Position numbers and translations under genes: made by a program
DNA from: Phorcus lineatus
Lineage: Eukaryota > Mollusca > Gastropoda > Trochida > Trochidae
Reading direction: 5' to 3'
Assembly: GCA_921293015.1 (NCBI GenBank)
Contig: OV121086.1
Coordinates: 41,805,402 to 41,869,401 of the forward strand
Length of the DNA stretch: 64,000 nucleotides
Notes under the pieces: generated by a model
Databases searched by the model: none
The model's input: the letters and a program-made list of their open reading frames with translations, nothing else
What the model was told of the DNA's origin: nothing
In this document: piece by piece, positions 131 to 48,072 of the stretch
Layout: each line of letters begins with the position of its first letter
Numbering within the stretch: position 1 is the first letter of the stretch

Positions 131-196
131 TTGGAAAAATCCTTGAACTGCCTATGCCATGAGCTGTGTTTTACTCTGTTTACTCTGTTTCTCCAG

Positions 197-303
197 GTTT
201 TGATATCCGGATCCCGCCAACTGTGAATTTGCCAGAATTTGAGAACCAGATTAAACAATGGTGCAGAGAGGCTGGGGAGGGGGTCACCTATACCTTTGAT
301 GTG
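197..303 (+). CDS. ACY1: ACY1 exon a
   Basis: The acceptor ctccag ends at 196 and the donor gtaagt begins at 304. The exon opens with two bases that complete a split codon, then reads [14 protein letters not shown] and [11 protein letters not shown]. It ends on a whole codon. Family counterpart: the strand and helix before the WM/YD-x-P turn in animal ACY1. Confidence 0.93.
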
Positions 304-4907: not shown

Positions 4908-5005
4908 CAAGAACATCCTGGAACCTTAGTTCATGTAACCCTATCTACCAAGATATCTTCGGTGCCAGGCTTATGCAGGTCTAGTGTTTAAGTGATACAT
5001 GGAAA

Positions 5006-5011
5006 AATAAA
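5006..5011 (+). terminator. Poly(A) signal of ACY1
   Basis: An AATAAA hexamer lies 99 bases after the ACY1 stop. A second AATAAA at 5406-5411 could serve a longer 3' UTR. Confidence 0.55.
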
Positions 5012-9182: not shown

Positions 9183-9254
9183 CCAAGAGGTGCCCAGGAC
9201 CAGCGGACTACACTTGTGGATGGGATCTCACCTGGCACGATAGATCCATCGAGC
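9183..9254 (+). CDS. STPG-like exon 1 (first seen)
   Basis: The acceptor ttctatttcag ends at 9182 and the donor gtaaag begins at 9255. Read with two bases completing a codon, it gives KRCPGPADYTCGWDLTWHDR then SIE and one leftover base. PGPADY is a canonical PG-rich turn. A different frame is also open here, but only this one joins exon 2 in phase and carries the motif. Confidence 0.6.
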
Positions 9255-12200
9255 GTAAAGCGCGCGTAAAATCAACTTATGGTAATCTCGGATGTTATTG
9301 GGCTAATTATTCTTGTCGAATTATTTTTCTCCATTCCATCTAAAGTGCTGCGTCCTGTTTTAAAATAATTTACGTACTCGTATGGGTCATGCAATTTCAA
9401 AACAGATAGTGTGACAATGTATTAATGCTACCACTAAAATCATCCATGATATCATGCTGTTTCAAAGAAGGTATTTTAATCTGGGGTATGGTGGTTATAA
9501 ATCATTATACTCCAAGAAAGGCGATCATATAATGTAATTTTCTGTCCAAACACCCCCCCCCCTAATAATTGTCTTCTGAAAAGCAAGACTATATCTTAAC
9601 CCGAAAGAATAATACTTTCCATTTCTTTACAGGCTTATTCTACATTGCTAATGTTTTTATATTTGTTTAAAACAAGACCTGAAAGGTGTTTCATCGACTA
9701 AGCTTGACTACATAACCTATCAATATGGTAGACATATTGCTTTTAGAACCAATTGCTATATTGCTATAGTCTAATTCACGTTTATGACACACTGAGATCT
9801 GACATTTACTTCCCTAAAGCAGTTACCAATTTCCCCCATAAAGAAGGTCATTGTCTGATAAAATGCTCATTTTTTAAGATAACCAACATTCTGTTTTGCT
9901 TTCTCTGAAGAAAATTGCTTTCACAGATTTGATATTTATCTACCATAAATGCCCCAGCTTGTAGGCCACGTACATCTGTTTATGTGTAGCAGAGCAATAT
10001 AATTTCTTCACTTCTGACACTGTACGTATACAAGCGCTACTCAGACATATGATTTTCATCTTTAGAACTAATTGCTTTTCCTCAATGGCATCATACTGTA
10101 TATTTTAGCACGATGTGTAATTCTCAAAACAAGATTTTATAAAATATCACGATTTGAAGGTATTCCATTTTGTAATGTTTTTCAGAGAGAAAACTGGATA
10201 TTGAATATTGTTTAATATAAGTAATTTGTCATCACATTTTCAGCCAAAATTGTATTATTATTAACTTATTTTATTACCATTATCTTTTAATTTCCACAAC
10301 ACCATACTTGTTTTCCTAAACTATGTGCAAGTTAAGCTAAAAGAATAACAGAAATCATCATCATCCTTTTGGGTAAAACATGTTTGTGAAATGTTGATAA
10401 TGACACTTGCTCGCGGATGGCAGGAAAGCCATGGAGAACACCTGATTTCATCACATTTGTTTGATATATTTTGTCATTGTATATCTCTCATTTCATGAGC
10501 CGATATTTGGTGTTTTTCTCTGCAGAAACAGTAGCCGCCTCTGATATAGGTCCGGCTATGTACAAAACAAAGATCGCGTTGAGTAGCGAATCTCTTCGCT
10601 GCAGCACAGCCTCCAAACACGCCTGTCTCGATGTGATGGCTGGACCGCCTAGAATACCTAGCAAATTTACGTATGTGCGGTACAATAGTTAGTACGTAGC
10701 AATACTACACATGAACGTTTATCAAACATACTAAATTCACAACTAAACAAATATATTTTTCAAAAGAAAATATTCGAAAAGATATAACTGTTATGTAACT
10801 TAGTATTTGACAATATTTACACTTTCTGTGTAATCAAGCATTCACCAACAGAAACATATGATATGTAATCAACATTCAACAACAGAAACATATGATACGT
10901 AATCAACATTCAACAACAGAAACATATGATACGTAATCAACATTCAACAACAGAAACATATGATACGTAGTCAACATTCAACAACAGAAACATATGATAC
11001 GTAATCAACATTCAACAACAGAAACATATGATACGTAATCAACATTCAACAACAGAAACATATGATACGTAATCAACATTCAACAACAGAAACATATGAT
11101 ACGTAATCAACATTCAACAACACCATTCAACAACAGAAATATATGATACGTGACCAAGCATTCAACAACAGAAACATATGATACGTAACCAAGCATTCAA
11201 CAACAGAAACATATGTTGCGTAACCAAGAATTCAACAACAGAAACATATGATACGTAATCAACATTCACCAACAGAAACACATGATGTGTAATCAACATT
11301 CAACAACAGAAACATATGATACGTAATCAACATTCAACAACAGAAACATATGATACGTAATCAACATTCAACAACACCATTCAACAACAGAAATATATGA
11401 TACGTGACCAAGCATTCAACAACAGAAACATATGATACGTAACCAAGCATTCAACAACAGAAACATATGTTGCGTAACCAAGAATTCAACAACAGAAACA
11501 TATGATACGTAATCAACATTCACCAACAGAAACACATGATGTGTAATCAACATTCACTAACAGAAACATATGATACGTAACCAAACATTCAACAACAGAA
11601 ACATATGATACGTAACCAAGCATTCAACAACAGAAACATACATGTGATACGTAGTGATGCGTGATCTGCAATCAACAGCAGGTACAAATGATACGTAATG
11701 TAGCATTGAACAAAAGGTACACATGATACGTTACCAACGTACCTACAACAGAAGGTACACATGAATCAACATTCATCATTAGAAACCGAGTTGCCTTTGG
11801 TGTAGGAATATGCGTCTTTCTTATAGATGAACTATTCTAATCCATCGCACACACGGTTCTTTGTCTTTCTCTTATGAACATCATACCAAATCGATTCCAG
11901 GGTTCGAGTCCCCGGGTCCCAAATACCGACTTAACTTAAGCTACTGGGACAGAGGCCCTCGCAAATCATTTGGGACAAAGGAACCTGACGTCATAGAGGC
12001 ACCTGGACAAGGTGAGTGATCATGTTTGTCACCTGTCATTCTCACCTGTTTTATTCAGTATTTCTTTAATTTGCATAGAAATGCTGTTATAAGAAATATC
12101 AATACATTATTAAACCTTTGCGACCTGTCGTTTAAAGATTAATACCATTATGCAACAGGTGAAAATAGTTTTGTTTTATTTCGTCGGTATTTTTTTTACA

Positions 12201-15200
12201 CTTTTAAAGAAAATTTGGAGGTATTTAGGACTGTTTATCGTTGCAAACATAGATATAGCCATTTCTCACGATGTGTCACGCAATAACAGATGTAAATGTA
12301 CTTACAGATGTATAGTTAAAATTAGATAAAGGCAAAAGGGAATCGAGGGATACATTATTTATCCAATCTTAAATTAATACTATTTTAATAGAAAATACAA
12401 CCATACGAACTTTGTGAGCAAGTAATCAAGACTAACTAAAATATAATGGATTTCAAATTACCCTTGTCCAATACTGGCGGCAAGTTACAGTTAAACACTG
12501 TAGAATTATTTACAACTTTCTAAAATACAACTAATGTGGTCAACCTGAAATACATGGTTGATTCCATTATGTTTATTTGATCTGGTTTGTTCCACTGTTT
12601 TATACCAGTCGTCTCATTTGACTCGTACATATAGCTATCAATGTTGCATATGGATGGAATTCCTAATGCCCGAAATACATGTCAATACATAGAGCTTAAC
12701 TGCATCGTCTCTGAGTGGGAATTAACGTTGTAAAGTATTGAGAGCTCGTTGGAGAGCATTATGTCATCTCTTTATCTGCTATCAGTTAGAAGCATGTGTC
12801 TGCAGGGACTAACCTGTTGGTGATAATGTCCTTCTGAAATATTAATTGAAGACGAGGTGACACGGGTTATCACTGTCAATTAAAGACTTGCTTTCATCAG
12901 ATGAGATTGCTTAATTCTATTGCTTATCTTAAATTCTAAAATTATCAATCAGCTATATCTATTTTTCATATAAACTTGTTAAAATGTTGCAATTAAGACG
13001 TTTATATAGAAATTAATAGTATGGACTAAGTCACCTGGCAGCGATAACATAAGCAATGCTAATCCACATTCAGTTAAAGGGACACAGAGTATGTTGTTGA
13101 AGTCAAACATGTCAAACTTTATAAATGGTGTTATTCTATCGAGAAGTATTGGTTGTTTCTGAAAATCAGCATCTTAGTGCTTATTAACACAGTATAAGGA
13201 CAATAAGCAGGTTAATGTCGTGATTTATGATAGAAAACCGGACAGTGGCGCGCGCCAATGTCTCAAACGTAATTTTCGAAACTATCTCGACAATCATGGG
13301 TTGGAAATGATTAGTAGGTTATCAAGTTTTACTTTACTCCGGATATTTGGTAATTTGAATCTTATTTAAGCCACGTGAAAAATCATAAATTATAATCTCT
13401 GTCACTTTAAGTAAACTATTCAAAGTCCTTGGTACACGTACATTGGATTATATTTTGCAAGTCCAGTACAGTACAGTGATTTTCCGTATACATCTGGGTG
13501 CCAAGGCAAGAAGCCTAACTCCTTCACAGTATGGACATGTAGATTGAAATGAAATATAAAATCTCATATGTTGAAATCTTATATCATTTTTGTTTAAAAT
13601 CCTTTACATGTTAGTCGTTACGAATCTTTTATCATTTAACCTTTTGGTTAATGTAAGGACAATTGGATTTTAATGTGTATCAATATTATTTATCTGGTTA
13701 TCATTGTATTTATATACCAACATTTATCCCTGGCCCCGGTAATTACCACATCCCCGAACCTGACAAAGGACCCAAGCAGGGATGAGGCCAAAAGAGGTAT
13801 GGTAGATTAATATCTATTTTCATTTTTTTTTCAAAAAACAAACCTACCCTTTTCATTGGAAAGGAAATTATAGGAGAAACGGTCTTATATGCGTTTAATA
13901 AAACTTTCATATTTTCGACATCTCCTCTAGAACTGTTGTACGCCAACCTGTAAGTCATAAGGTGCGGTTTGTTAGTATTTTTAAAAGTGTATGGCAAAAA
14001 GTCGCGACTCCCTAGTCATATAAGTTACTCTTTAAAGCTTTGGTTGAAGAATAAGATCTTGAATACTTTAATCGTTTGTAGACATGTCTGACCAGCAGGT
14101 TTGATTGCTAACCATTCATTTATTGTCATCAACCTGTTACTTGTCTGCTGCCTGATATAACAAATCATGAAACGCTAAAGAGCTACAGAGCCTGTGACTG
14201 TAAATTGTTTGAGTTACGGACCTAAAACATAACATATTTATATGAACATAGTTATTTCAATAACAATCTAAGAGAATCTCCTCATATTTCTACACTACAC
14301 AACCCCCGTTCCATCGTTCCCCTGAATTTTGTTATTTCCTGTCCTTGAAGTGACTGTGAAGTAAAATACCCTTCAATGTTACCAGTAAAAATCTTTTTCG
14401 TTAAAACGATTTAATAATTACGAAACAGATGGAAGAAATCCATACAAGGTAGAGTGCATATGTTCGTCACACTTAAACATCGCAGGACTCGCACTAAGCT
14501 ATGCTTAAGTTTCTTAGTTTGTCGCATTTTATCATCGTCAAGGTCTCCTTAGCAATCAATATGATTACATGTATTCCGATTTGAAGATGGCATTCACTAA
14601 CTCCCCAAGTCCTTCAAAGCACTAATTGTTAACCATACTTGTAATGTCATTTATATTTCGTTTCATCTGTAAAGAGGATGTATCTCTCTGATCCCACACA
14701 GAACACTTAATGCACACTATCATATAGGAGTTACAAACACGACATGCGATACCGTAACCTATATGCATGACGGTTACCGTTTGATGTCCTCTTCAGTAAT
14801 TTCAGTGCATTACCTGGGGAGAAGGGAATGATATTGATTTTACACAATAAATGTATTTTGAGTATATTTTGATCACGCAATTAAGTATTACCTGCCTTTG
14901 AGTTCTTCTGCCACATGCAATTTTCAATTATCACTTTATTGCCAGTGTTTCTCGATATAGCAGTTGTGATTGTGGGGGTTGAAAAAGCTAGTTCAGATTG
15001 AAGGTATAGGTTTTCATCATGTCAAGCTCGGCAATTTTGGCTACGGTAAAGAGCTGTTCAGTGTACCTTGTGTGGCTTAAAGAGCCACTCCGTGAGTTGT
15101 TTGAGTCATATATGCCAAACTTAATCAATGGTGTCATTTGATAGCGAAGTATCGACTGTTACCAAAAAGACACATTTTAAAGCTTATTGATTTTTTACAG

Positions 15201-18200
15201 TGACAATAGGAAGGTAGAACGTCGCAATTATGATCGAATACCGGACGGTGGCGCGAGTCAAATCGTCAAATGTAATTTTGGAGACTAATCTTAAACAACC
15301 AGGAGGGCAGTTAGGAGTTGATAGTGTTTGTTAGGTTATATAACTAGTATCCATGTATATTGAACGTGATATCTACACCTCTGTGAATTTATAAGGCTGT
15401 TTTTCGATGTTTATGGAAAACCAGTATTTGTCATATATATGTCTTTTGGACATGAAAAGTTAAGAGTTTTTTTATTTTATATCACCACATGACATTAAGG
15501 TTCGTATCAAAGGTAAACAATATGTTATGAAAATCACGGAGTGGCTCTTAAAACATCATTGCAGTTGTCTAATCGAGAGTAGCAAGTTTCGTCGGAAACC
15601 GTCATGCCTTGTACATTGCGGAATTTCCCCCAGTCATTGTTTCTTCCTCGGGACCTAATTAAGAGTAATCTTTGAAGGCGAAATAGACGAGTTGGTTAGC
15701 TGCTAGTACGGTCAATGCTGGCGGTTTTGCCTGACCATGAGGGTGTGGGTTCGCGTCCAGCAACGGAGACGACTCGAAAAAAGTCTACGAATTTTTACTC
15801 TTGCAGATAGTGTGATCCCAAATATATCACTGCTATAAATCTTTGAAAAGTTCCATATGAGATATTGTACCTCGCGAGATCCGGGCTATACTGGAAGGTT
15901 TCACTACAATTCCAAACCAATAATTATTGCGGGCTTTCCATCTGGAATGATATTAGCGCCGCGATGGATGTGAAATGAGAACGAAAACTTCAAAATAATC
16001 TTATTTGTCAAAAATATTTGCATCTTCAACCACCCCCCCCCCCCCCCCCCCCACTCCCTCCCCCTACCACTGTTTTTAAAAGGGTAGTTTCGGTGATTGT
16101 GGAAGATAACAATACAACGGTGATTGTGGAAGATAAAAATGGTGTATGTATGGTCATAAATCAATCTAAGTTACGAAACAGTAATTGCGATTAGTTAAAA
16201 GGATTATTCAGGGACTTGAGGTTAAAAAACAGTCAGTATCGCGAACTTCAAACATGCACTTCAAGGACAGCTTGAAGTCTTCGCCTCAAATCCCTCACCA
16301 GACGTCGAAATCGCTCTTGTGGCAACGGCTGCCACTCCTCGTGTAATGCCGCTTCTTTTTTAAGCAAGTTCTGAGAAGGAGGAGGATCCCTGCCTTGTAT
16401 CAGTCGGTCCAATTGCCCCAAACGTGTTCAAGGGGAATACGATCCGGACTCATTGCAGGCCCAGGGGGGGGCGTCAAGGCATTGCCGTTCTCCTTGCTAG
16501 TGGTTCTCGAAATGGGGCACGACAGGTTCAAGGTCTTCCCGGATGTCAAGGTACCTCGTACGGTTACGAGATCAAGTTTGCAGTTAAACGAGAAGAACCC
16601 CCATTCCATTACAGATCCACCGCCATACAGTTCTGTTGGCATGCTACCTCGTGGTGCATATGCTGTTCCTTGATGCCTCCAAACTCTGGTCCTGCCATCC
16701 ACAGAGTGGACAAGGAACCTGTTTTCGTCTGACCAGTTAACCTTCTTCCATGATCTTAATTTCCAGCCAGGTCTTTCTCTACACCATGTCAGATTGCTTG
16801 TGGTTGTTATTTAGTTTTGGTCGCTTGATTACTCTTCTGGACTTCAATCCAGCGGTCTTGAGTCGATTTCTAACAGTTTGGTGACTGAACAGACGGTGTG
16901 GAAGCCAATGGCGTTTTAGGGTTGTACTGGAAGCTTACGAGCGTTAAGCAATGATGTATCCTCTCTCACGGAGGTGATACGTGGTCTGTCTGAGGGTGTG
17001 CAATTCTTCGCGTCATTTGGTCGTGCATGTTTTCTGGCTAAACGACTTATGGTAGATTAATGACGTCAAGTTCTTCTTGCAATTTCCTTGAAAGAAAGAC
17101 CCGTTCCAAGAAGACCAATAATCTGCCACTTGACAGCCTTCGACATTCTAGCACCCAGCATTCTGGGTTACAATGGCTAAAAAGGCTTGTATCAACGTTT
17201 TTATAACCGAAATTGATTCCAAAGCCATACTGCAAATTTCGGAAATCGTGGAGAGAAAAGTGCACGTGCAGCTTTTCGCGTTTGGATGACAAATATCCCT
17301 ACAAAAACATGATCAAATCAAACCTACTACATAGCAGATTCATGGGTACAAACAACATCAACTGGGTTTGGTATGTGCCGAAATAACTTAACTTTTACTT
17401 GGGGGTGCAACACCCTTTTTACTATGTTTATTTCGTGTAGGTTGGGTACAATTAAGCGACTCTGAAGACAAACATCACGTCAATTTTCATCAAAACAAAA
17501 ATCATATTTTTAGTATTATCTGTTCATAGAGTCTTGCCACTACTCCAGTGCTTTATATACTATCTAAGTTGTAAAATCGAAAGTTGTAAAACAATTTGAC
17601 ACGCATGTTCAAGGAATGGTATAACGGCGTCATTTACCGTCCTTATTTCCACTTAAGCCTCTGAATACAATACAGTAATTGATGTCAGAGACACATGTAT
17701 TGCATCTCTTCTGTAACTATTGTCGTTATTGTCGTGTTTACTCCTAAAAAACGCGATGAATAAACGACTGAATTGTTGCTTGTCATTGATGCTTACCACT
17801 CATTTACTTCAACAATATGAAATTTACATTTTATTTGTATCACCTATTACGACAGCTTTTTTTCATTCATTTTTTAATTTCGAGGAATTGTCTAAAAGCA
17901 TAAAATTAATGAGATTCTTTCATTCCAGCAGGAGTAACAATAATGTACTTAGATGTACAATTCATTTCCTTAGCTCATACTTGATGGTGAACACCTATTT
18001 CGGACTGAATGAAAAATTTAATTGTATAGGTAAAAGGGAAACTTCGAAAAAGAATAAACTAGAACCATTAACATTATATATGTATAATACGAATATCCGT
18101 AGTCGTAGAATAGGGTGTCTTGTAATAAGCGAAAACTTCATGTAGCCATTTTGGTGTGAATCCTTTTTTAATCATTCGAGATAAAGGCATATATATTAGT

Positions 18201-21200
18201 AGCGAGACCGAACTTGGAACATTCGTTTTAGAAGTTTATTGATTGAAAATATTGTCCTGTAATTTGGATTTGTTGTCCTTTTCGTGAGATCGATGTGTTT
18301 CTCTAAAAGAACATGCATGCCACAAGGCCTTTAGTGTAAAATGATACTTTGTAATAATAATGTCAAATGATACTTTGTAATGATAAAATCAAATGATACT
18401 TTGTAATGATAAAATCAAATGATACTTTGTAATGATAAAATCAAATGATACTTTGTAATAGTAAAATAAAATAATACTTTGTAATAATTAAATAAAATGA
18501 TAATTTGTATTTGTAATAAAAAATAAAATGATACTTTGTAAGAGAAATATTTAATGGTACTGTGTATTCTTAAAATCAAATGATACTTTTTGATAATAAA
18601 ATCAAATGAAGAGTAACATCACGCAAGAACTGGTCCAAAGAAAAATGGTTGCGTTCAGTTTCATTAGAAATTTTTAAAAAAAATTTTAATCTTTTATTGA
18701 GCGCCGTATGAACGGATCTCCTAACTCCTAGTTCATGCGTTAATGTGATCAAGTTTAACTCAGCGTAGTTAATGCAGTGATAAATGTATCAAAGAGGAGT
18801 ATTGTGACAGTATAAATACAGGGTTTGGCGTCATCCAAATCCAGGGCCGAAATACTTCCTCTTTGGGGACTAAATAAAAGGAGACGCGTCTGTTCAGGGA
18901 ATAATTCTCTTTGATTAAGACATGTTCACGTCGATACACTGCTATTATCTGAAATTAATCCCCTTTGGCTTAAAAAAGCAAGTTGATTGATATTCAAATC
19001 TTGCAAAACAGCCAAATCTTGCAAAACATTGCAAATTGAGAGTGTTACATATTCATAGCTATTCAGTTGTTGAAGCTGACGCGTGCAAACCTACATACTG
19101 AAGTTTGGGAATCATTTGTAAACTGATATCAAAATGAAGACCGTGAATGAAGAACATTAAAAAATTAATGGTAATCAGTCCCGTAGAGAAATGTCTTTAG
19201 TTGAGTTTTAAAACAATCAAGATTTTCGCAGTCTCTTAGGTGTTTATACTACACAAATAAGGACCACACTGTTATTCAATGGCATGTATAAAATAGATCA
19301 CGATGTTCACTGGTATAGACAATATGACACATTCATATAATATGTAGTGTGTAGAGAAGTGAATTTAAGTAATTCATAAAGACACTATAATTCCTTTTTG
19401 ATGTACATACATGTATGACTGATGCATTTGTCCTTTGGCTTTACCTCTACTTTATTCTACTAATACTAATATGGTATATAACTGCCGTGTGTGTCACTAA
19501 AGTTGGAATGTTAACACGTTCCTTGAAAATAGAGGCGTCAAACGTTAATTTAATAAATGCCAACCTTTTTAACCGAAAAGCTTAATCAAAAAATATAGCC
19601 AATTAAAACGTGCGTACAATGTAGATGAATGTGGATTTACACACCTCTTATGTAAATGTTTTGCCCCAGTCCGCCCTCTTGCCCCTGCACCCAACACCTA
19701 CACGCTTAAAAACACCATTGACGCCAGTACATGGCGGTCACGATGGCGTGTAGATGGTTCGACATTAAAGGTAAACTATCAATGTTATAAATCGTACAAT
19801 ATTAGTATTCTATCTGCATCATTACATGGAACTTGTCGAAAATCTACCGCAGAATCATCAATTTTGCGCTTTATCTTATTTTTATTAGTAACGATAACCA
19901 TCTCCTTTTGTTATCCTTAGCGTTATCCTTAACATCCATAACTTTTGTCAAACATCAGATTGAAGGACAGCCGAGATAACTGGAGATTCAAGATTTCGGG
20001 TGTTGAATCGATTTTGTAATCAACGTGACTTCCCATCATACCTGAACATTTTACCGCTGTAGATCTTGTTTTATAAGATTCTTTAAAATCAACAATTTTT
20101 AAACCAAAACAATCAAAACGCTCAGTTGATGAAAGAGTGGTTTGCTTCACAGAGGACGGTTCCTCGGGACCTGCACAGTGTCACGTGCGTGAAGCGACTG
20201 TGAAGAAGGACAGTTTACGTGCAGACAAATATGTCAACCTTCTACAAGTTGTACGTTACCTACTTATCTAAACTTTAAATTCAACATTCTTAAGGAGCCA
20301 TGACCGGAGCAAATCTTACAAACACATGAATATTATACAACCATATATATCACAGGTGCTTGGCTTACGCAACACTTCTCATCTTTCAATTATCTTTAAT
20401 TACTCCCTTTCATAATTTGTTGGCACACCACAATGATACCGTGAAAGAATATTTTCCGATTTCCACCGTCAAAGTTCGTCGATCATAAATGTTCAAATAT
20501 CATTGACATAAAATAAATGATCATAAGTATAATTTATTTTTTTAATCATTACGATTAAAATATTACTAATGTTCTCATCATACATATGTGTAGCATCCCC
20601 CGTACCCACCTCATCGGGAGAAACCATACTTATCACGTCAAATAACATTATCACTTATGTCGATTAAAATGTGTCGAACAAACAAAATATTAGCGAATCA
20701 ATATTTTTATCAAGAGCCGAAAGACAGATAATTTACGCCGAGGGTTTTATAAACTTTGATAATCGAACTACGTTCCCTGACTGGGCATCTGCAATCAGCA
20801 GATTGTTGTCATCAAAGGTTTCTCAAACAAAGCGCAATAAAGTTATGGCGTGACAGATTATAGTTATCTCATATCAAACTGGAGTAACAATTGAAATACT
20901 CGTTATAAATGATAACGACCCTGTTATTTTTCTTTATAAAAGGTAGGCTATCACACATAAAATTGTCTTCTTACATGCATTAACAACAATCGATCGCTGT
21001 CACATTTCAAGGGGCTTCTAATGAGTGTACATTATGCCTTATATGCATTGAAGGACGTTATATAGGAGGTATTGTCTAACTTTACACTCGGCCTAATCAT
21101 CCTGTCCTAGGGTAAACCGTATACGCTGACGCTCCGCTGTAGTACCCTCAGTTACAACCCGACTCAACCTTTTTGTTTTGTTTCATTATCCCAAATACAA

Positions 21201-33200: not shown

Positions 33201-36200
33201 GTATATTTGGAATGTAAAGAAATACCAAGAAAATAAAAAATATTGCTACATTGTTTGCGATTGTCATTAAAATGTACAAGGTATATCCATGATGAAGCTA
33301 GATTATACAATTAATCTCACTGAATCATGGAATATCGATACAATAAGCTTGTTTATAGAGCATATCAATCAGTAAACAGAATCCAAACCGACAATAGGTA
33401 ATCTAGATAAGAAGATCTTGATTGATGTAAGTATGTCTTTTGGTACACCTGCCCCATTTTCCTCGTTAACGTTAGTAACAAGTCGGGGAACTATAAGCAT
33501 TTATTGTCAAAGGCCCTTTTTAAGTAATTCGTTTATTTTTTCTCCAAAGTTATTTATTGAGGGCACGTTAACCTGTGTTTGAAAGGTAATATATCATTTT
33601 GATGTAATCACAATGTGTACGGCGTAGCAAATTTGTTTGAAAATTTTATTTTCCTCGTTTTCCGAATAACAAGTTTATATGACTGAGTTTATGACTTTAT
33701 GATTTAATAGCTTGAGAGAGTCAAGATATCACATCATTCAATTTGATAATCCATAATCATAGAGGAAATAATCGGGTATGCAAACATAGACAAATTGGCG
33801 ACCATTTAATGAACACAATTTAAAAATTTGAGACAGGGAAATGGATTCGCATAGTTAAACCGATCATGGTACAAATGTACATGTACGATCGTTTGAAAAC
33901 TGCTTTTTTTGATTATCAACATTGTCTTGCCATTGGAAACATTAATTTTCGTTTTCGTGACATCACTTTGTTTATCTAAATCACGTGCTACTGTCCCTAT
34001 ACAGAGTATTGCGAGTTACATACTAGATTTCTGGAACACTTTTGGATGAAATTTAAATCTCTTATTCCATTTATGTGACGTCACCGACATATCTTAAATA
34101 ACGACAAACACACAAAAATGCGATATTAACTGCCAAGTCGTTGTATGTGCACATGATGCTTATGGCACTGGGCATGAAGCTCTCTTAGTGCTAGGATAGT
34201 CGTAAACCAATGTTAATGTATGGTACTTACGACTATCTTAGTGCTAAGAGAGCTTATAAAATCTAGGCATAGAAGGGTCAATAATTATATATTATATCAT
34301 AAAATGTGATCATTCTTAACTGTTTCATCCACGCTTAAGTTATAAATAAAACATTAACTGCGGGCTCTATTAAAGAGCCACTCCATGATTTTCATTACAT
34401 ATCATCTAACCTTTGATACGAACCTACATGTCATATGTGGTGATATACAATCAAAACATCTTAAATTGTCATGTCCAAAAGACATATATATATATGGCAA
34501 ATACTGGTTTTCCATGAAAATCCAAAAACAGCCATATAAAGGCACAGAGGTGTAGATATCACGTCCAATATACATGGATACTAGTTATATATAACCTAAC
34601 AAACAGTATCAACTCCTTACTGTCCTTCTGGCTGTTTTAGATAAGTCTCCAAAATTACGTTTGACTATTTGACGCGCACTACTGTCCGGATTTCGATCAT
34701 AATTGCGACGTTCTACCTTCATATTGTCACTGTACAAAACAAATTAGCTTTAAAATGTGTCTTTCTGGTAACAGTCGATACTTCGTTATCAGATGACACC
34801 ATTGATTAAATTTGGCATATATTATGATTCCTACAACTCACGGAGTGGCTCTATAAGAAGGGTGTATTAACAAGGGTCACAAGGTAATGTTTTGTCTAAG
34901 AAACTACTAACTAATTATAATTAAGTTGATTTCATTGTCCGATAACGCAAAATAAAAATATTTAAGTTATTGCTTATAGAATATCCCAATAAGCAATCGA
35001 TCGATTTTGTTGATATTGATCCGCATCAGATGTATTTCCCTTATATGTTCCCATTTTGTATGTGAGGCAGAAGGTAATTACGAAAAGTAGAGTCCCCAAA
35101 GAACAAATGAGTGACGTCACAGATAATGATCATCGAGGCAGGAACTGACGCGACTGTTTCGTTCCGGGTGCTTCTCATTATTTCTACGGTTTCAACATCT
35201 CTCTCAATGAATCTCGTCTTTCAATCACTAAAATTGAAAGAGCTGCGTCATGCCCTGACTATACGTCAACGGTGCTATAGTTATCTGTATAAACCCTCCT
35301 GGTTTTCAATAAACCATAGTTTTGTACTCCATCCAAAACTGTAGCGAAAAGGTTATTTCCATGGTAAATCAATGGAAGTTCTAAGGTATTGCTGCAAGCA
35401 CAAAACAAGTAAATATTTGACGAACAAATGTAATTTTCATAGCACACATACATCACTCAGCGTAAATAACCACGCAGCTAGAACAAATAACTATTGTGAA
35501 CCCTTTCAATCTAGGCTTTTTGATAATGATTTCATCAGGTAAACGCCGTAATTTACAACAAAGCCAATATTTTACAATTTATCACTCTGCAACTTTTAAA
35601 CGTGGCTTTTTGATAACGAATGCTAGTGGTGGTGATTTGTTGAGTCGATTTTGTATTGTCAAACCAGAATATATCCTCATTGACGTTTTTTGTCAAACAA
35701 GTGTAAATAATTACAGAGTAAACCATTCTAACTGACAGCAATCACAAATCTATGCTCGACGATATAATTTGCACCTGTGTTTATATACACCTTATTTAGT
35801 CAACATATCCATTATATGGAAAGCCGTGTTACATTGGCTGCGTTCGCATCACACAAATAACATTTATATATGTGATATGTCCCATTCAGAATCACGCAGT
35901 TTCATCTAAGGTGATTGTTCGGTGTTTATTTATGGTCTAACTCCTAATAGTAGCGCCATTAGTGAAACGCTACAGGGAATGAGTTATGAATTGTTTTCAC
36001 GTTCACAAAACAAAACGTATTAATTTGCATTATCGGATTGACGATGATTGGATTGTGTGCTGCTTCAGTCACTTTAATGTTAATGTTTTATAGCTCGCAT
36101 ACCTGTCCGAACAGGGTGGGGCTATGGTAACCCCACCTTCACGTTTGCGGGCATACATTTAATCCTAAAACGCGAGACTCATAAAGTATTCATAACGAAC

Positions 36201-42200: not shown

Positions 42201-45200
42201 CCCTAAACGTATTTGCTGAATTATATTTATGATGAGGCGTAAGTATAGCAAGCTTTGAATTTGATCACGTACTAAACATTAAAGTTAATATAAACCGACT
42301 CGAAGTGTTTAATACAAATTTATCATCATCTATGTAATGATTTGAACTTATAGGTGGTTTGCTGAATAAATATCGTTTCACAAAATTGTTAATTTGAAAT
42401 GAGTTCTTTATTTATAGTACCACTCAAACGAAACTGTAAATGCAGGGAACGATGAGAATATCCCAACGAATCGCACTTCATAGATTCATGTACAAGTAAG
42501 CCAAACGCAAAGGCTGAAAATATGGTTGCTTATATGTAGCTGATGGTATCCTCAACGGAGAGATGAAACTTCACTTTAAAGACGCAAACTGACGGTTGAA
42601 CAGACAGAGTTCATACATACCGACAATAATATTGGAACGAGCTATGCTTCTTCAGCATTTACAACCCAAACCTGAGGTTAATGAACGATAGATTGTAAAC
42701 GACGAAACAAGTAATTGGAAGCCGCAGATAAGACACGATTTGCCCTAACACCAATACCGAAGCATCTCTGGTAGTTAACTGATCATGTATCCACTTAATA
42801 GTTCCACATGTTGAACATAGCATAGATGATCATTGTCAAAACTACCAACTATCTCAATATCACATGGATCTGTATTGCTGAACCCATTATGTCCTTGGAC
42901 GTATTTATTCACCAATGCATGACCCTATGTTTCTGATTCTGGTCTACTTTATTTGAGTCTTTTCTGAGTTGTTTTTCAATACGTCACGTGATACTGATTT
43001 AACATACTGATAAAAGTACTTAAGAGAAATAACATTTTAGATCTGGACCTCCTAGGAAACGGTCATATATGTTGTAGGTCTATCGAAGGCGAAAGCGATG
43101 AAATGCCAGAAATGATAACTATTTCTGAATATCATGGTCAGAACTTTCTAAGAGTTCTTACCTTTCTTCAAAGATTTAACCTTTAGCGTTGAGCGACTAA
43201 AACCACCCCCGCCACGTAGTAGGAGAAATATCGCATTAACAATGCATGTTTCGGGAGCTTTATAACAGGAAAACTCCTGAAGTTATCTGTTTAAGGGGCA
43301 TTCCGACGATAGATAGCACGCGCAAGCGAATAAATGAGCGATAACATTAAACGTAAACGCAAATGTTTGCAATGCAATAATTAATTCGCGATCTGTCACC
43401 TGAGATAGTACTCTACAATTTGAACCAAAACTGATTATCAGAGGATAGTTGTGCGATGTTGTGTAATGAAATATAACGTCGATTTATAGGAGAGACCCGA
43501 TATTGGCTTCGCAAATGGCTTAGCTCACTGACTGGATTAATTTCAGGACTTGAAATACACTAGTTCGTTTTTTCCGACTTATGATGTCATCTGAAGGCAA
43601 AGGTGTTTGGATTAATGTGATATATTGTTTAAATGGCTTATTTGACCATGGCATTTTGAAAATAGTTTTCAAAGAGACTATGGGTGTTGACCCCTTTATA
43701 CTTCCCTAAGTATAGGTGCTTGATCGCCGACTCTTTTTCCACACTGTTTATCCCTGTGACTAACGAAACACGTATAAGGAAGAATGAGAGCACGTTATGG
43801 TAACACTACAAGACAAAGGCGTTTCATTAGATTATTCACTTTTGAGAAGCACATTTTCTATGGCTAGCCGCTGGTACGGTCGTTGGTGGTACGACCCTGA
43901 CTCTGAGGGTGTGGGTTCGAATCCTACGACTCAACCCGAAAGAGTAAAAGAATTTGTACAAGTGCAGATAGCATAATCGAAAATATAACAGTGCCCTATT
44001 AGTATAGTTGGGTAGAGACAATATGAAGGATAAACGTCTAAGGCTTGTTATTGAGTCTATATGAAATGCAAAGAATCTTTAAGAAACACCGTGAAGGAGG
44101 AATGCGAACAAGTCTGAGGGTAGGCTACAAGACACTGTAATGCTAGTTTAGATTACGGAGGTGATTTACGTACCTGTGCCTCCTCATAATTACGTCCGGT
44201 TCAAGAATCTCGCTACATATCACTCCACAGCATGTTTATGTTAGAGTCTGCCTCATGGATAGTTCAAGCCCAGGCGACGCATATGAAGATGAGGCCATCG
44301 TCTAGGGGTTTTAGTTATCAAAAGTAGTTACTTCCTTATTTTTTAATAACAAATGAGGTTAATCATATTGTGTGTAAATTGGTTTCAAACAGAATCCATA
44401 TGAACGTGAGTGTTGAGACTGCAAGATGAGTGATCAATCATATCATACCTACTTAAATACAAAGTGCCGAGGAGGTTTTTTTTTTTAATTCAGGAAAAAA
44501 ATGTAAAAGCCCATCTGTAAATGTGTTGTTATATCAAAGTATAAACATACTCGTTTTACACTTAAACGACCTATAAACATGTGTCCGTATAGTTTGATAT
44601 TTCGTAAAACTGTTTTAAACCGGATCCTACGTGCAGTTTTCACTTGGCGTTACGAAGTAATGTGAAACAATCATCTAAACCATTGAAAGCACGTAATACT
44701 TCCTTAATGTTCAATGAATAATGTTGAGTTATATATAGAATTGTTTTAATCTTAAAAAATGTTACCTGTACCTGAGAAACATAATAAGTATGTAAACTCT
44801 GCTTGTAACATTGTATAATTGAAGGTACACATTACAACATCATCAAAATATAAGGTTTGCAAAAGTGCTTTAAACTGAGTTGCTTGCTCTTAATAATTGC
44901 ACTGTTGACGGAAGTATAAACAAGTTAACGGAAGTATAAACAATGATGCTTTACAAATAGATACCATAAACGTTGTTACTGTCACATTCCCTTAACATGA
45001 AGTTTGTTGATGTTGTTTCTAATTGGTTTAAACCCAATCTCATGCCTCCATAATTGAACTAAATGATGAAAGGATTAACGCACTGCAAGATGTTGTTCAC
45101 TTACATGCTATAAATTATCTTTTCGCGACTTGCTCTGAGAACCATTTTCTGTGCAAGTGGTTAATATTCGTACAATGGGAATTTTTTAAACATTTTCATG

Positions 45201-48072
45201 GTATCAATAAGTCAGTATACTTGATCGATTATTTTGATGACACGAACCAGATTGATGCTAGGCCCATATGCATTTAAGTGTGGTAACCTTTTAGAAGTTT
45301 AAAAATGAAATGTCCACAAACTTTCTGAAAATACCACATACTGAATTGGAATTTTTATATTTACAGATTATGGTAAATGTTTTTTCATCATCATCATTAT
45401 ATAATTCATTCAGAATTTAGGCCATTCGGGCCCATATACATGTGTTAACACATTAAGTCATATTACAAAAACCTATAAACACGCCCATCTGCATTAATGT
45501 ATTTACACATTTCCATAAAAAAGAACATTGATATATATTGATAACTAACAAAGAAAACATATGTGTAATTTGACTCTTAATGTTACTTACATTCTTGTAA
45601 TAGTTTACATCTTAGCTCGTATGAATGCATGATATACTGGAAACAAGTAGAAAATGGACTCTCCAAGAGGAAGGCTTTAGTTCGGTACCAGAACTAAAAA
45701 AACTCATCTTTCTATATCATATAACGTGTTTTCATTTTGAACAGATTTATATACTTGAAAGTTTTTATTTGTACATTTCCCCTTTCACTCGTCGATGTTA
45801 AGTATCAATATTTTACCTTCGTTTCAATAATTCATATTCATTCATAAATGTACTGTGATTATTACAAAATATTAAATCAAAATGAACACAAAGGAAATAG
45901 CTCAAGCGATTTTTCGGAGAGTTATTAAACGCTTTAACACTAAATGGTTAACTGAGAATAAATGGTTTAAATTATACCTGGATTAGGTTAGAGAGTTCAA
46001 TTATTGAAGTAACATTTAGAATAATCCAATATGTATTAGTGGTCGACTATTTAGTAACAAATCCAATCAGCATGTTACTTTATAGAGACTCAATAAATAA
46101 AGTAGTTTTTAATCGATCCAGTACTAGTTATTAAAGGAAGCTCTATACATACACCATACCCGTGTATATAAAGAAATAAGTAAAATACTAAGCAATAAAC
46201 TCAAATACTCCGCCTAATATAGTACAGACAACTGTACAAAACAGGATGTAGACTGACTGCAGACTGATACAGCACTTTACACGCCACCGATCAATTCGTA
46301 ATGAAACACCTTTTGGGAAACCGTTTTTGAACTGTGAAGTACAGCTGTTGAACAATTGTCACAGAACTGCGTAAACATAAACATAAACATTTATCCTTAC
46401 AACTTGAACAAAGTTTCATCTTATCATCAATAATTATCTCTGGGCGTTAACCAAACGAGTGGTCATTGGGAGCATTTATAATTCCAAGACATCTCCAAGA
46501 GACCGGAATAATTATCCATATGCAGCACAGCTGTTAAAATGTCACTGAACCATGTGGTCAAAAACATAAAAAGGGATATACTAATTCAATCGCAATCAAG
46601 GTAAACAGCTCTCATAACCAACATGATTCGATGATTGTTAGCGTTCATTTGATGTTTCACATCTGTTTCGTTAAAGTACATTTACATTTAATTGTACCAA
46701 GTGCACTGGATCATGAAACTTAAAGAAGAAAAAAAACCCAAAACATTCGTGCATGTTTCGTACAGCTGTTGAACATGCATGTATCTTCAGTATGTGTTTT
46801 CAGTCCCAATCTGCCAACAGGTTAATTCACATGAATACATTTCACGGTCCAGTGGTCAGGAAGTAAGGTTCATGTGCTGACCTTACCTTTCTCTACAGAA
46901 AGGGACTCAACTTAGGAAGTTGAACATAGGGTACTAAACTTCAAACCAGTACCATAAACGATGTTTCAATTACCTCTCAGGTCAACATCTTTACCATTAC
47001 GAAACTAATAAAATTATATCATTGACTTATAAATGAGGGAACGGACAATTGACCAGTTGACCACAGACAATGATCTACGAGCAGTTCGCATTGACCGGGC
47101 GAATGCACATATATTACATTGAGACCAGTACAGCTGTTTGTATTTCAGGTCTTTCCGTGAAATCCTGAACAATGATCTATACACAATTTAGATAAACACC
47201 TATTTAACTGTTAGCATGAAACTACAATAACCATTCATTCAGATATGACCAGTAGCTGTGGAGTGGTCAGTTGAACTAGACCATTTGTGATTGGTCAACG
47301 ACTCGTACAGTAATCGGAGCAGGTGTGATAATACAAACACCTGTTCATAAGTAAATACATACGTAAGTCATTGAACTATATACCCACATAGACGTTTACA
47401 CACATCTGTTTTAATATCTTCATGGAAACGAATATACCTTGTTGATGGCGTTTTTCTTAACCGCATATATTTTGTAAGTGTATTCGTAAATTGGTACCCC
47501 AAATTAAGAGACGAATATCGTTGCTTTTACGTAGTTATGGATATCTGTAGCTTAGATAGATCTATGGAAATTATGCAAATATTCTTGAACTAATAAGGTT
47601 CGAATTATGTCAATTTAATTCAAGCACGATTCATGCATCATTAAACATCCAGTGCTTAGGTTATTGTCAAATCTGATCGGAAGTTATGCGATCCCATTAC
47701 ATGTAAATGAAACACATATACATACATGTACATTTCTTGTGATCTTGAAATGAGATGTTTTCTACAAAAGTATTTGTGAATACCACTTTTACGAATCACG
47801 ATTTAAGTGATTGTGACTTAACCTCTATGTTCTATAAACTGCTGAATATACTACTGACTACTACCGAATAAGAATCGTACCAGAAGTGAGAAATATATTT
47901 CATAAATAGGGAAAGTTTTAACTGAAAGTCAACTTACCTGTATCTTCTTACAGAAAAAGGCCCGGCCCCAAGCCAGTATCGAGTCGAGAAGCCCAAAAAA
48001 ACCAGGCGCTGTTCGAGCCCCTGCCTTCACTATGGGTCGATACTATCTTCTTTCTCCCCTGGTTTCAATTGA
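9183..48072 (+). CDS. Sperm-tail PG-rich repeat protein (STPG/SHIPPO/ODF3-like), multi-exon
   Basis: Assembled from exons 9183-9254, 10526-10670, 11901-12011, 19670-19770, 20155-20250, 32536-32584 and 47954 onward, perhaps with a 17-nt microexon at 11783-11799. Most modules begin with a PG/PA turn plus Tyr or a near match: CPGPADYTCGW, IGPAMYKTK, SPGPKYRL, APAPNTYTL, SGPAQCHV and GPAPSQYRV. Basic stretches such as RKSFGTK or SINALGRRQ follow. This is the layout of STPG repeats in ODF3/SHIPPO and CIMAP proteins, which are associated with sperm flagella, axonemes and cytoplasmic microtubules. Phases agree at 9254/10526, 12011/19670, 19770/20155, 20250/32536 and 32584/47954. Only 10670/11901 fails without a further exon. 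The first exon needs one base from an upstream exon that I did not find. Introns reach 15 kb. I infer the family from repeat spacing, not a database hit. Confidence 0.68.
10526..10670 (+). CDS. STPG-like exon 2
   Basis: The acceptor tgtttttctctgcag is strong and the donor gtatgt begins at 10671. Only one plus frame is open across all 145 bases. It contains TVAASDIGPAMYKTKIALSS and later MAGPPRIPSKF. GC content is clearly above the flanks. It joins exon 1 (one leftover base plus AA) to make Gln. The minus frame over the same bases is a shadow. Confidence 0.62.
10829..11650. repeat. 34-bp satellite array with higher-order duplication
   Basis: More than twenty units of a 34-bp monomer containing aacattcaacaacagaaaca and tatgatacgta. 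A larger block, starting at the anomalous caccattcaac near 11121, is repeated near 11375. That is a 254-bp higher-order duplication carrying the same variant order. It lies in the intron between STPG-like exons 2 and 3. Confidence 0.9.
11783..11799 (+). CDS. Possible 17-nt microexon of the STPG-like gene
   Basis: The acceptor catcattag ends at 11782 and gtgtag follows at 11800. The piece adds one base to exon 2, then NRVAF, then one base to exon 3. That is exactly what is needed to bring exons 2 and 3 into the same frame. The flanking sites are mediocre and 17 nt is tiny, so this is a hypothesis, not a call. Confidence 0.25.
11901..12011 (+). CDS. STPG-like exon 3
   Basis: The acceptor tcgattccag ends at 11900 and the consensus donor gtgagt begins at 12012. 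It encodes FESPGPKYRLNLSYW then RGPRKSFGTKEPDVIEAPG. The SPGPKY turn plus SFGTK is the most recognisable STPG module in the window. One leftover G joins exon 4 as GTC. Confidence 0.75.
13078..13406 (+). mobile_element. MITE family B', flanked by TTAA
   Basis: 329 bp between perfect TTAA copies at 13074-13077 and 13407-13410. Ends: agggacacagagtatgt and, reversed, agtgacagagattataa. The interior matches family B (gtcaaacwtgtcaaactttat, gaaaaccggacagtggcgcg), so it is a diverged subfamily with different tips. TTAA target duplication is the hallmark of piggyBac transposition. Confidence 0.75.
13729..13785 (+). pseudogene. STPG-like module, decayed exon or alternative last exon
   Basis: The frame reads PGPGNYHIPEPDKGPKQG and then TGA: a textbook PG-rich turn 1.7 kb after exon 3. 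No AG lies close upstream. The nearest phase-compatible acceptor is at 13656-13657, which would add an unusual AT-rich segment. AATAAA follows near 13895, so an alternative 3' exon is possible. A dead duplicate exon is equally possible. Confidence 0.4.
15081..15547 (+). mobile_element. MITE family B, copy 1
   Basis: 467 bp with inverted ends agagccactccgtga and tcacggagtggctc. TTAA lies at 15077-15080 and 15548-15551. The interior has no open frame. A reversed copy is at 34374-34852 and a truncated one at 62879. Confidence 0.85.
15691..15838 (+). mobile_element. tRNA-headed SINE, copy 1
   Basis: The head ggttagctgctagtacggtc is followed by a pol III B-box-like gtgggttcgcgtcc. A shared body follows (tttttactcttgcagatagt, gatcccaaatatatcac). 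The same order recurs at 43.86 and 58.19 kb, so it is a dispersed SINE and not a tRNA gene. Confidence 0.7.
16032..16052. repeat. Poly-C tract
   Basis: An uninterrupted run of about 20 C followed by ccactccctccccc. Possible length instability or assembly uncertainty. Confidence 0.9.
16248..17146 (-). mobile_element. Tc1-like transposase relic
   Basis: Read on the minus strand, it starts MSKAVKWQIIGLLGTGL then SFKEIARRT, the paired-type helix-turn-helix of Tc1 transposases. Later come GRTRVWRHQGTAYAP, GGGSVMEWG and MSPDRIPLEHVWGNW. It ends EEWQPLPQERFRRLVRDLRR and a stop. These are the N-terminal DNA-binding, DDE-domain and C-terminal parts in the right order. The frame is broken several times and about 100 codons short of the usual 340. 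Terminal inverted repeats were not identified. Part of the plus-strand frames here are shadows. Confidence 0.85.
17147..18335. other. Intron stretch after Tc1 relic
   Basis: AT-rich. The 141-codon frame at 17720-18145 has no domain I recognise and low-complexity AT-driven composition, so I treat it as chance. Confidence 0.45.
18336..18606. repeat. 26-bp tandem repeat
   Basis: About ten units of aaatgatactttgtaatgat plus aaaatc. The first units are nearly identical and the later ones decay. It is in the intron before STPG-like exon 4. Confidence 0.88.
18607..19669. other. Last part of STPG-like intron 3-4
   Basis: AT-rich, with no recognised repeat or coding signal. Confidence 0.5.
19670..19770 (+). 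CDS. STPG-like exon 4
   Basis: The acceptor tgttttgccccag and donor gtaaac flank 101 bases that read RPLAPAPNTYTLKNTIDAST then WRSRWRVDGSTLK. PAPNTYTL is a typical repeat core. Two opening bases complete the codon left by exon 3, 7.7 kb upstream. It ends on a whole codon. Confidence 0.68.
20155..20250 (+). CDS. STPG-like exon 5
   Basis: Tandem acceptors cacag and cacagag lie before it; the second, ending at 20154, keeps the frame of exon 4. It reads DGSSGPAQCHVREATVKKDS then LRADKYVNLLQV. The donor gtacgt begins at 20251. The repeat Tyr is replaced by Cys in GPAQCHV. Nearby GT dinucleotides leave the exact end slightly uncertain, but each keeps the same phase. Confidence 0.58.
21287..21640. 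repeat. Local duplicated segment
   Basis: Blocks such as cgtccgttat, gaggatgtgtcatgact and ggtcacgttatctctc/ggtcacgtcatctctc occur twice, about 200-300 bp apart and in altered order. It is an old local duplication without coding signal. Confidence 0.6.
22180..22887. repeat. 27-bp satellite, about 26 units
   Basis: The unit agttacatgtaaccaccctt plus catcaag is tandem throughout. Every unit holds the palindrome ttacatgtaa. Because 27 is divisible by three, it keeps an open frame (22016-22720) encoding a nine-residue repeat RVTCNHPSS. No start, domain or splice context supports a real protein, so I annotate it as a satellite in STPG-like intron 5-6. Confidence 0.92.
22888..25825. other. Intron stretch, nothing recognised
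   Basis: AT-rich sequence in STPG-like intron 5-6. Slightly GC-richer pockets near 23.6-23.8 and 24.7 kb show no coherent exon. Confidence 0.45.
25826..26400 (+). mobile_element. MITE family C, copy 1, flanked by TTAA
   Basis: 575 bp with perfect TTAA at 25822-25825 and 26401-26404. The tips are aggcacta and tagtgcct. The interior shares ttctatcgatgcaa, cctgcaatcaa and gtcagctgtgcacaaaa with the reversed copy at 40967-41587. Non-coding. Confidence 0.85.
26901..27470 (+). mobile_element. Tc1-like transposase relic, internally deleted
   Basis: It reads LPRLTNEERQRAMGRLRAGQ, then VADHPRPGASRV and HLRNRFVTAT. In a shifted frame come RATGLGRNLNRKEGPVL, then VFSDESRFTLDELGR with the first catalytic Asp. 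Soon after, VLKSMRRRCDR appears, which normally sits at the very C-terminus. The middle of the DDE domain, including the second and third acidic residues, is therefore missing. Its sequence differs from the minus-strand Tc1 relic at 16.2 kb, so it comes from another lineage. Confidence 0.8.
27471..31429. other. Intron stretch with chance frames
   Basis: Frames at 27735-27935, 28423-28611 (minus), 28859-29074, 29092-29313, 30832-31017 (minus) and 31067-31258 have no recognisable domains. Nothing else supported. Confidence 0.4.
31430..31885. repeat. Degenerate ~32-bp tandem repeat
   Basis: About 14 units around cattcatgaagcactacacg and ttacgtgataa, with substitutions and length changes. It is older than the 27- and 34-bp arrays. 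Confidence 0.85.
32536..32584 (+). CDS. STPG-like exon 6
   Basis: The acceptor tattgtctcttgtag ends at 32535 and gtattt begins at 32585. The 49 bases read TFPCSINALGRRQDNR plus one base, like the second half of an STPG module (PxFSxGxR). It starts in the phase left by exon 5. Its leftover C plus AA of exon 7 gives Gln, so NRQKGPAPSQY forms across the join. Short, so moderate confidence. Confidence 0.5.
32634..32787. repeat. Local duplication of ~60 bp
   Basis: A block with cttattcgaa, ggattatattttcc, tgrcatat and tttatt occurs at 32637 and again about 110 bp later. It lies 50 bp downstream of STPG-like exon 6. Confidence 0.7.
33620..33999 (-). mobile_element. MITE family A, copy 2
   Basis: The reverse orientation of copy 1. 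The right end is cgtgctactgtccct. The interior includes ccgatcatggtac, tttcctctatgatt reversed, and a match to the ggaaatggattcgc block. The left edge is less certain. Confidence 0.6.
34177..34255. repeat. 29-bp inverted repeat (hairpin)
   Basis: Arms aagctctcttagtgctagga plus tagtcgtaa and ttacgactatcttagtgcta plus agagagctt pair with about two mismatches around a 21-base loop. It could be a fold-back element or a remnant of two TIRs. Confidence 0.8.
34374..34852 (-). mobile_element. MITE family B, copy 2
   Basis: 479 bp, reversed relative to the copy at 15.1 kb and alike along its full length. TTAA precedes it (34370-34373) and ATAA follows, so one flank has mutated. The ends are agagccactcca and cggagtggctct. 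Confidence 0.85.
34853..37794. other. Intron stretch with chance frames
   Basis: Several 60-85-codon frames on both strands (for example 35111, 35496, 36747, 37065) lack domains. An exon-like piece at 36404-36456 is discussed under rejected items. Confidence 0.4.
37795..38141 (+). mobile_element. MITE family A, copy 3
   Basis: About 347 bp with ends agggggcaggagcacg and cttgctactgtccct. It shares gtgatctcaagaaaag, gggttaagctatgcgcatgc and ttatttcctctac with other copies. The frame 37926-38177 lies inside it and is not a gene. Confidence 0.7.
38142..40966. other. Intron stretch with two GC-richer pockets
   Basis: At 38.7-38.9 kb and 39.45-39.8 kb, open frames of about 100 codons exist on the minus strand (38706-39011 and 39448-39750). 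I recognise neither protein and see no convincing splice structure. Confidence 0.35.
40967..41587 (-). mobile_element. MITE family C, copy 2, flanked by TTAA
   Basis: 621 bp with TTAA at 40963-40966 and 41588-41591. The ends acgcactagtgcacgc and gcgtgcactagtgcct form a near-perfect inverted repeat. It is homologous to the copy at 25.8 kb, in opposite orientation. Confidence 0.88.
41588..43857. other. Intron stretch, nothing recognised
   Basis: AT-rich. Two weakly similar ~60-bp segments with gagcacatcag/ggcacatcag and catttacaaatt/cctttacaaatt lie near 42.05 and 42.15 kb. Confidence 0.4.
43858..43995 (+). mobile_element. tRNA-headed SINE, copy 2
   Basis: The head ggctagccgctggtacggtc, the B box gtgggttcgaatcc, and the body gtgcagatagcataatcgaa. 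It aligns with the copy at 15.7 kb. The minus frame 43836-44021 is its shadow. Confidence 0.72.
43996..47953. other. Last part of STPG-like intron 6-7
   Basis: AT-rich, without long frames. Short phrases with acagctgtt recur between 46.3 and 47.2 kb, but no clear repeat unit emerges. Confidence 0.4.
47954..48072 (+). CDS. STPG-like exon 7, possibly terminal
   Basis: The acceptor tatcttcttacag ends at 47953. It encodes KGPAPSQYRVEKPKKTRR then CSSPCLHYGS, a full repeat module with the PxxxxGS ending. The frame stays open to TGA at 48070-48072, so it may be the last exon, with ATTAAA near 48212. Alternatively it splices from a weak GT near 48036 or 48061. The sequence does not decide which. Confidence 0.62.

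Follow-up and report, generated by a model that had tools for sequence, protein, structure and literature searches.

A probable, highly diverged ODF3/CIMAP1-like gene of PG-turn exons in Phorcus lineatus

In the window analysed here, a 64-kb stretch of the Phorcus lineatus genome (C11:41805402-41869401 of a 958-Mb assembly), four islands on the plus strand (exons 1-4) are real in the sense that each of them combines splice-type ends, an open frame, high GC content and one PG-type turn. A split gene of the STPG/SHIPPO kind is the best reading of these islands; they are probably exons of a genuine, highly diverged and presumably coding PG-turn gene of ODF3/CIMAP1-like type, located on the plus strand downstream of an aminoacylase-1 gene. 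Two further islands, a probable exon 5 and a possible last exon, would extend the chain, the latter over a very long intron.

The exon islands and the joined chain

The start of the window is part of an aminoacylase-1 gene on the plus strand, recognised from two joined exon-like pieces (Table 1), and the chain of PG-turn exons begins approximately 4 kb downstream of it on the same strand. Exons 1 and 3 and the island at 47954 were obtained from a scan for turn letters and subsequent reading, exon 2 was added by reading around them, and the stretch at 19681 was reached via tblastn with the ODF3 paralogs of this genome. Exon 3 is the best single island; its stretch and donor were chosen by a spliced profile alignment. 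The 3' end of exon 2 is uncertain, with donors at 10674, 10687 and 10691 lying in three different phases, of which 10687 (score -2.8) was used, and exon 5 has two acceptors, 20153 and 20155, only two bases apart. Upstream of exon 1, no convincing candidate for a start exon was found between 4.9 and 9.2 kb.

Table 1. Position and characteristics of the exon islands and of other features in the window (plus-strand coordinates of the 64-kb stretch)
Feature	Position	Strand	Sequence	Remarks
Aminoacylase-1, first piece	~193-285	+		weak peptidase-dimerisation match only, E 0.15
Aminoacylase-1, second piece	~4.75-4.89 kb (4750-4890)	+		matches human aminoacylase-1, 1q7l_B, E 1e-18
Exon 1	9183..9281	+	KRCPGPADYTCGWDLTWHDRSIERKARVKSTY	phase 1 in and out; splice scores 0.3 and 0.2; turn PGPADY
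Exon 2	10526..10687	+	TVAASDIGPAMYKTKIALSSESLRCSTASKHACLDVMAGPPRIPSKFTYVRYN	good acceptor, 7.0; turn IGPAMY
Minisatellite	10830-11640			34-base units; in the intron between exons 2 and 3
Exon 3	11901..12011	+	FESPGPKYRLNLSYWDRGPRKSFGTKEPDVIEAPGQ	strong donor, 8.3; turn PGPKY
Stray turn	~13733-13782	+	PGPGNYHIPEPDKGP	lone turn between exons 3 and 4, outside the chain; stop soon after, no good acceptor by eye
Tc1-type transposase remnant	16817-17059	-		in the intron between exons 3 and 4; HTH_Tnp_Tc3_2 33.1 bits (cut-off 31.5); neighbouring 16.2-16.8 kb without HTH_Tnp_Tc3_2 match
Exon 4	19670..19770	+	RPLAPAPNTYTLKNTIDASTWRSRWRVDGSTLK	turn PAPNTY; tblastn with paralog A, E 0.85 (19681)
Exon 5, probable	20155..20250	+	DGSSGPAQCHVREATVKKDSLRADKYVNLLQV	spotted by eye among GC-rich stretches; GC 0.50; GPAQC
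Minisatellite	22180-22889			27-base units; between exon 5 and the last exon
GC-rich open stretch	26881-27433	+		helix-turn-helix matches under the Pfam cut-offs; possibly another transposase remnant
Minisatellite	31450-31885			31-base units; between exon 5 and the last exon
tRNA-like stretch	43818-43975	+	GGTTCGAATCC	SINE-looking; encoded STFSMASR mimics half an STPG repeat
Last exon, possible	47954..48076	+	RAPAFTMGRYYLLSPLVSID	acceptor 5.0; in-phase frame ends with the sequence given, followed by a stop at 48076

Joined together, the six exons give a chain of 692 nt and 229 residues, in which the five joins are in phase up to the stop. Four turns and the GPAQC of exon 5 follow each other along this chain at steps of 36, 51, 38 and 32 residues (counted by hand), compared with 36-43 residues in paralog D of the same genome (see below), so that two of the four steps lie outside the range of that gene. 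Exons 1-4 and the last exon have a GC content of 49-54% against 32-36% in their 1-kb flanks (for exon 1, 0.53 against 0.32), a level that is matched by only 0.8-2.8% of the window positions. Both other forward frames are interrupted by stops in all five of exons 1-5, the boundaries of which had been picked to be open; unlike this pattern, the third frame of the last exon is also open throughout. The third-position GC content of the chain is 0.48; the two stretches of paralogs that were measured have 0.67 and 0.57.

A reading made from the sequence alone had counted six or seven such islands with splice sites and PG turns on the plus strand. Four of these are well founded (exons 1-4), being the sole loci returned by the scan described below; exon 5 and the last exon are weaker, and a seventh exon was not found between 20.3 and 47.9 kb, where turn-bearing exons were sought in any phase and a wider search covered the combination of phase-0 entry and phase-1 exit. 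The dimensions given in that reading, exons of 50-145 nt and introns of up to 15 kb, differ from those obtained here: the exons measure 96-162 nt and the last intron would span 27.7 kb.

Clustering of the islands and their phases

The clustering of the islands was assessed with a scan for exon-like stretches of 60-200 nt that have an acceptor score of at least -1 and a donor score of at least -3 and contain [GA]P-x(1,2)-Y. These cut-offs were fixed after the islands had been seen, so as to admit them, which makes the contrast a flattering one; controls were scored with the same cut-offs. On the plus strand of the window, the scan returned exactly four loci in any phase, which are exons 1-4, all situated within 10.5 kb and all entering in phase 1 only. 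The minus strand of the window gave none, and none were found in 187,392 nt of real control sequence, for which the antisense strands were taken from 11 paralog loci and both strands from five others. One hundred local dinucleotide shuffles contained on average 0.88 loci per 64 kb; four loci occurred in a single shuffle and four within 11 kb in none of them. When phase 1-1 was required, the mean over 60 shuffles dropped to 0.17 with a maximum of 2, as against the four observed. Run on the paralog loci in sense orientation, the phase-1 scan yielded 12 candidates, distributed over six of the 11 loci. Both its sensitivity and its specificity are incomplete, because at least one of these candidates (in L009) is not a PG turn and real PG exons were missed in other loci.

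The agreement of phase at five joins, on which the sequence-only reading had relied, was overstated. The joins between exons 1 and 2 and between exons 3 and 4 are unforced, whereas the other three leave a choice: exon 2 offers donors in all three phases, the better-scoring acceptor of exon 5, 20153, is out of phase with the better donor of exon 4 and suits only a poorer one, and the phase at the last join varies with the frame that is read in the last exon.

A spliced profile aligner was written for this analysis and run at several intron penalties with minus, reversed and complement controls. Plus-strand scores of 31.6, 27.6 and 25.5 at three penalties compare with control scores of at most 24.0, 20.0 and 19.4, which is a modest separation. 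The alignment took exon 3 and the last exon only and left exons 1, 2, 4 and 5 unused; it placed the last exon in its GPAPSQY frame, on the columns of repeat 3, and at two of the three penalties added a spurious exon, located at 35.0 kb. Restricted to 7-21 kb, the aligner favoured a single look-alike at 13.7 kb, and at a low intron penalty it produced meaningless paths of many exons, the minus strand (173.9) exceeding the plus strand (170.8). Among five pieces searched separately, only the stray turn at 13.7 kb, which may be a relic repeat or a product of chance, registers with PF07004, scoring 13.6 bits and thus under the cut-off of 20.

Two observations concern other parts of the assembly. 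Locus L009 (G000:C65:5000-14500, minus strand, approximately 3764-5645 of the reverse complement) holds coding stretches rich in PGPGxY, the frames of which are broken by TAA and TAG only, while TGA terminates the last of them. This is the pattern of ciliates in which TAA and TAG encode glutamine. The contig, C65, is 19 kb long with a GC content of 52% in the piece examined, and may have entered this mollusc assembly from a contaminating or associated ciliate. Haemocyanin beta-sandwich domains (16 in total) form two clusters of eight on G000:C12, one near 7.65 Mb and the other near 16.56 Mb. The clusters are separated by about 9 Mb and occupy opposite strands, which fits two mollusc haemocyanin genes of eight units each.

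Comparison with ODF3/CIMAP1 genes and STPG profiles

Genuine genes of the family are present in this genome, namely paralog A (L004, an ODF3 in a single open frame), the split paralogs B and C (both on C9), paralog D (C1, L006) and paralog E (C9, L005). Paralog D matches the ODF3 chain 8snb_5A at E 3.6e-91 and PF07004 with 90.1 bits, and in its repeats 2 and 3 a phase-1 intron directly precedes the turn. Two introns of the window gene are likewise in phase 1 at offsets of 0 and 1 residue, judged by eye from one closely compared gene with predicted splice sites: from the split codon to the turn there are six residues in both genes at repeat 2, and three in the window gene versus four in paralog D at repeat 3. 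Two exons of paralog E were scored as phase 1-1 in the scan. In paralog C, a single exon covers repeat 1 together with the beginning of repeat 2, and in paralog B repeats 1-3 share one open frame; the resemblance of the introns is, thus, to paralog D. If acceptor 20155 is used, the junction of exons 4 and 5 is in phase 0, which by eye is like the intron before repeat 5 in paralog C.

With ODF3/CIMAP1 proteins (8snb_5A, 8snb_1a, 8otz_A1, 8otz_A0 and 8iyj_Y0), the window gene shares an ordered series of PG-type turns, each in an exon module of its own, and, as in paralog D, phase-1 introns that in repeats 2 and 3 closely precede the turn. In addition, PAPNTYTL of exon 4 is similar to the P-A-x-N-x-Y-T-L with which ODF3 repeat 4 begins, and the end of the chain resembles the C-terminus of the family, although this match is weak (E 0.93). 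The window gene differs from these proteins in its IGP and PAP turns (exons 2 and 4), in a step of 51 residues from turn 2 to turn 3 compared with 36 in paralog D, in a sixth turn that lies outside the frame of the chain, in the start exon that was not found and in the lack of a significant Pfam, phmmer or hhalign match. Likewise, the P-G/A-P-x(1,2)-Y turn of PF07004 (SHIPPO; STPG and related proteins) recurs along the chain, but neither the pieces nor the joined chain match the profile.

Neither the joined 229-residue chain nor any of its pieces found a Pfam family at E values up to 10 or reached the curated PF07004 cut-off of 20 bits, and in the PDB no relative of the chain was found at E values up to 10. 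A search of the joined exons with the STPG-repeat profile had been set beforehand as the test of an STPG/SHIPPO-like gene, and it returned no match where paralog D scores as given above; what stands of that proposal are the four ordered turns on one strand and the intron phases like those of paralog D. Among the 19 matches listed for a genome-wide PF07004 search, in which the best candidates were scored, none lies in the window. An hhalign comparison of the chain with an ODF3 profile gave a probability of 3% (P 0.014); for the translation of exons 1-4, 30, 7 and 6 of 2000 shuffles scored as high against three ODF3 profiles. Global alignment to nine relatives resulted in z values of 0.6 to 3.5, and of -0.3 to 3.9 with the turns masked, the value for paralog D then being only 0.3. 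Judged by sequence, tests of family membership thus failed or were marginal, and the resemblance appears to reside mostly in the turns and the architecture. The window gene may act like a member of the family, but cannot be classed as one by profile.

Gene extent, alternative readings and significance

The extent of 39 kb (9183 to 48072) that had been proposed corresponds to an in-phase chain that does exist and runs to the stop at 48076; yet, this length depends solely on the weakly supported last exon and is not proven. In the last exon, a GPAPSQY turn is found in another frame than the in-phase end, one whose stop is at 48072, with the frame switch near an A-run; this split of the last repeat may reflect an evolutionary frame shift, an assembly slip, a relic or coincidence. 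The in-phase end, which resembles ODF3 ends, ranks joint third among 2983 open-frame ends of the window against the ODF3 C-terminus profile. Without the last exon, the gene may stop near 20.3 kb, at a length of 11 kb. Such a shorter gene, running from 9.2 to approximately 20.3 kb with exon 5 as the terminal, stop-containing exon and the 47.95-kb island unrelated to it, is a variant of the main reading rather than exclusive of it, and we regard it as possible but somewhat doubtful. It would agree with exon 5 remaining open for six residues past its donor before a stop, with A[AT]TAAA signals 262-586 nt beyond 20250, and with the 27.7 kb between exon 5 and 47.95 kb, in which the scan found no turn-bearing exon in any phase, as well as with the weak similarity and the fully open third frame of the last exon. 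However, A[AT]TAAA also occurs 142 and 260 nt beyond 48070, such signals being common in AT-rich DNA; the 47.95-kb island combines its acceptor with high GC and a C-terminus-like in-phase end; and in ODF3-type proteins a sixth repeat is present and the C-terminus is conserved. Between 19.8 and 47.9 kb, a search for a repeat-5 exon entering in phase 0 and leaving in phase 1 gave none with a PG turn and 25 turnless candidates, none of them convincing. Three further stretches were dropped by eye: YTFKSRNY at 36287 for want of exon context, PGASHY at 35149-35277 for want of an acceptor, and TFSMASR at 43.8 kb, which sits in a tRNA-like stretch.

The islands could also be the decaying relic of an ODF3/CIMAP-like gene that was once coding and has lost constraint. 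Strong divergence from all compared paralogs, several weak splice scores, the start exon that was searched for in vain, the halves of the last repeat in different frames, a third-position GC content below that of two paralog stretches and the stray turn at 13.7 kb with its nearby stop are all in line with decay, but the islands of high GC persist, the chain runs in phase to its stop without a frame break, and in exons 1-5 one frame is open where both others are stopped, albeit within boundaries picked to be open; a pseudogene seems unlikely. It is more improbable still that GC-rich islands with P-G-x-Y look-alikes were drawn by chance from 64 kb of AT-rich sequence. Splice-site choice does permit phase fitting, the cut-offs were post hoc, shuffles contain look-alikes in any phase at close to one per window length, and the chain has no Pfam or PDB match; on the other hand, four loci within 10.5 kb on one strand contrast with an opposite strand and 187 kb of real sequence that contain no locus at all, and with 100 shuffles that gave no such cluster, and the window gene and paralog D have intron phases in common. 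Hardly credible is an origin of exon 3 or other islands as pieces of a repeat element. It is suggested by GGTTCGAGTCC at the start of exon 3, which we take to resemble the B box of a tRNA-SINE, and by the tRNA-like stretch that is also present near 43.9 kb. Against it, exon 3 with its flanks matched only itself in a DNA search, which skips very common words and is not conclusive, and at the protein level searches of the genome with exon 3 and with the joined chain gave no second copy: the chain matched nothing there but the six exons from which it was built, and the one further hit was a 27% match at E 4.7.

Proteins of the PG-turn kind are extended and mostly disordered. ODF3 proteins occur, by molecule name, as chains in solved sperm or axoneme structures, which presumably represent sperm doublets. 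If the preferred reading of a diverged, coding PG-turn gene holds, the chain would be transcribed, with exon 5 and the last exon as putative members, and by analogy to the solved relatives its product may be an extended, mostly unstructured chain, the short P-G/A-P-x-Y turns of which would pack stepwise along tubulin as repeated contacts within sperm or ciliary doublet microtubules; an axonemal place of the product is suggested by the same analogy. One passage of a published paper names ODF3A among the microtubule inner proteins identified by another mouse sperm study (PMC10663601), and a table row of another gives stpg2 as testis-enriched in a freshwater snail (PMC13023353). No published description of the window gene was found in a literature search that was not aimed at Phorcus lineatus.

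Tentatively, the window gene might encode a lineage-specific, fast-evolving doublet-microtubule protein of molluscs, in which only the PG turns and the exon architecture of ODF3/CIMAP1 have been kept while the sequence has moved past the reach of profiles, and might thereby represent a hidden, unannotated class. The scan for a motif together with splice sites is simple and could be tried elsewhere. If the gene is real, PG-turn axonemal proteins can outrun profile detection and yet retain their exon-turn modules and, consequently, lists of the sperm-tail genes of molluscs would have gaps.
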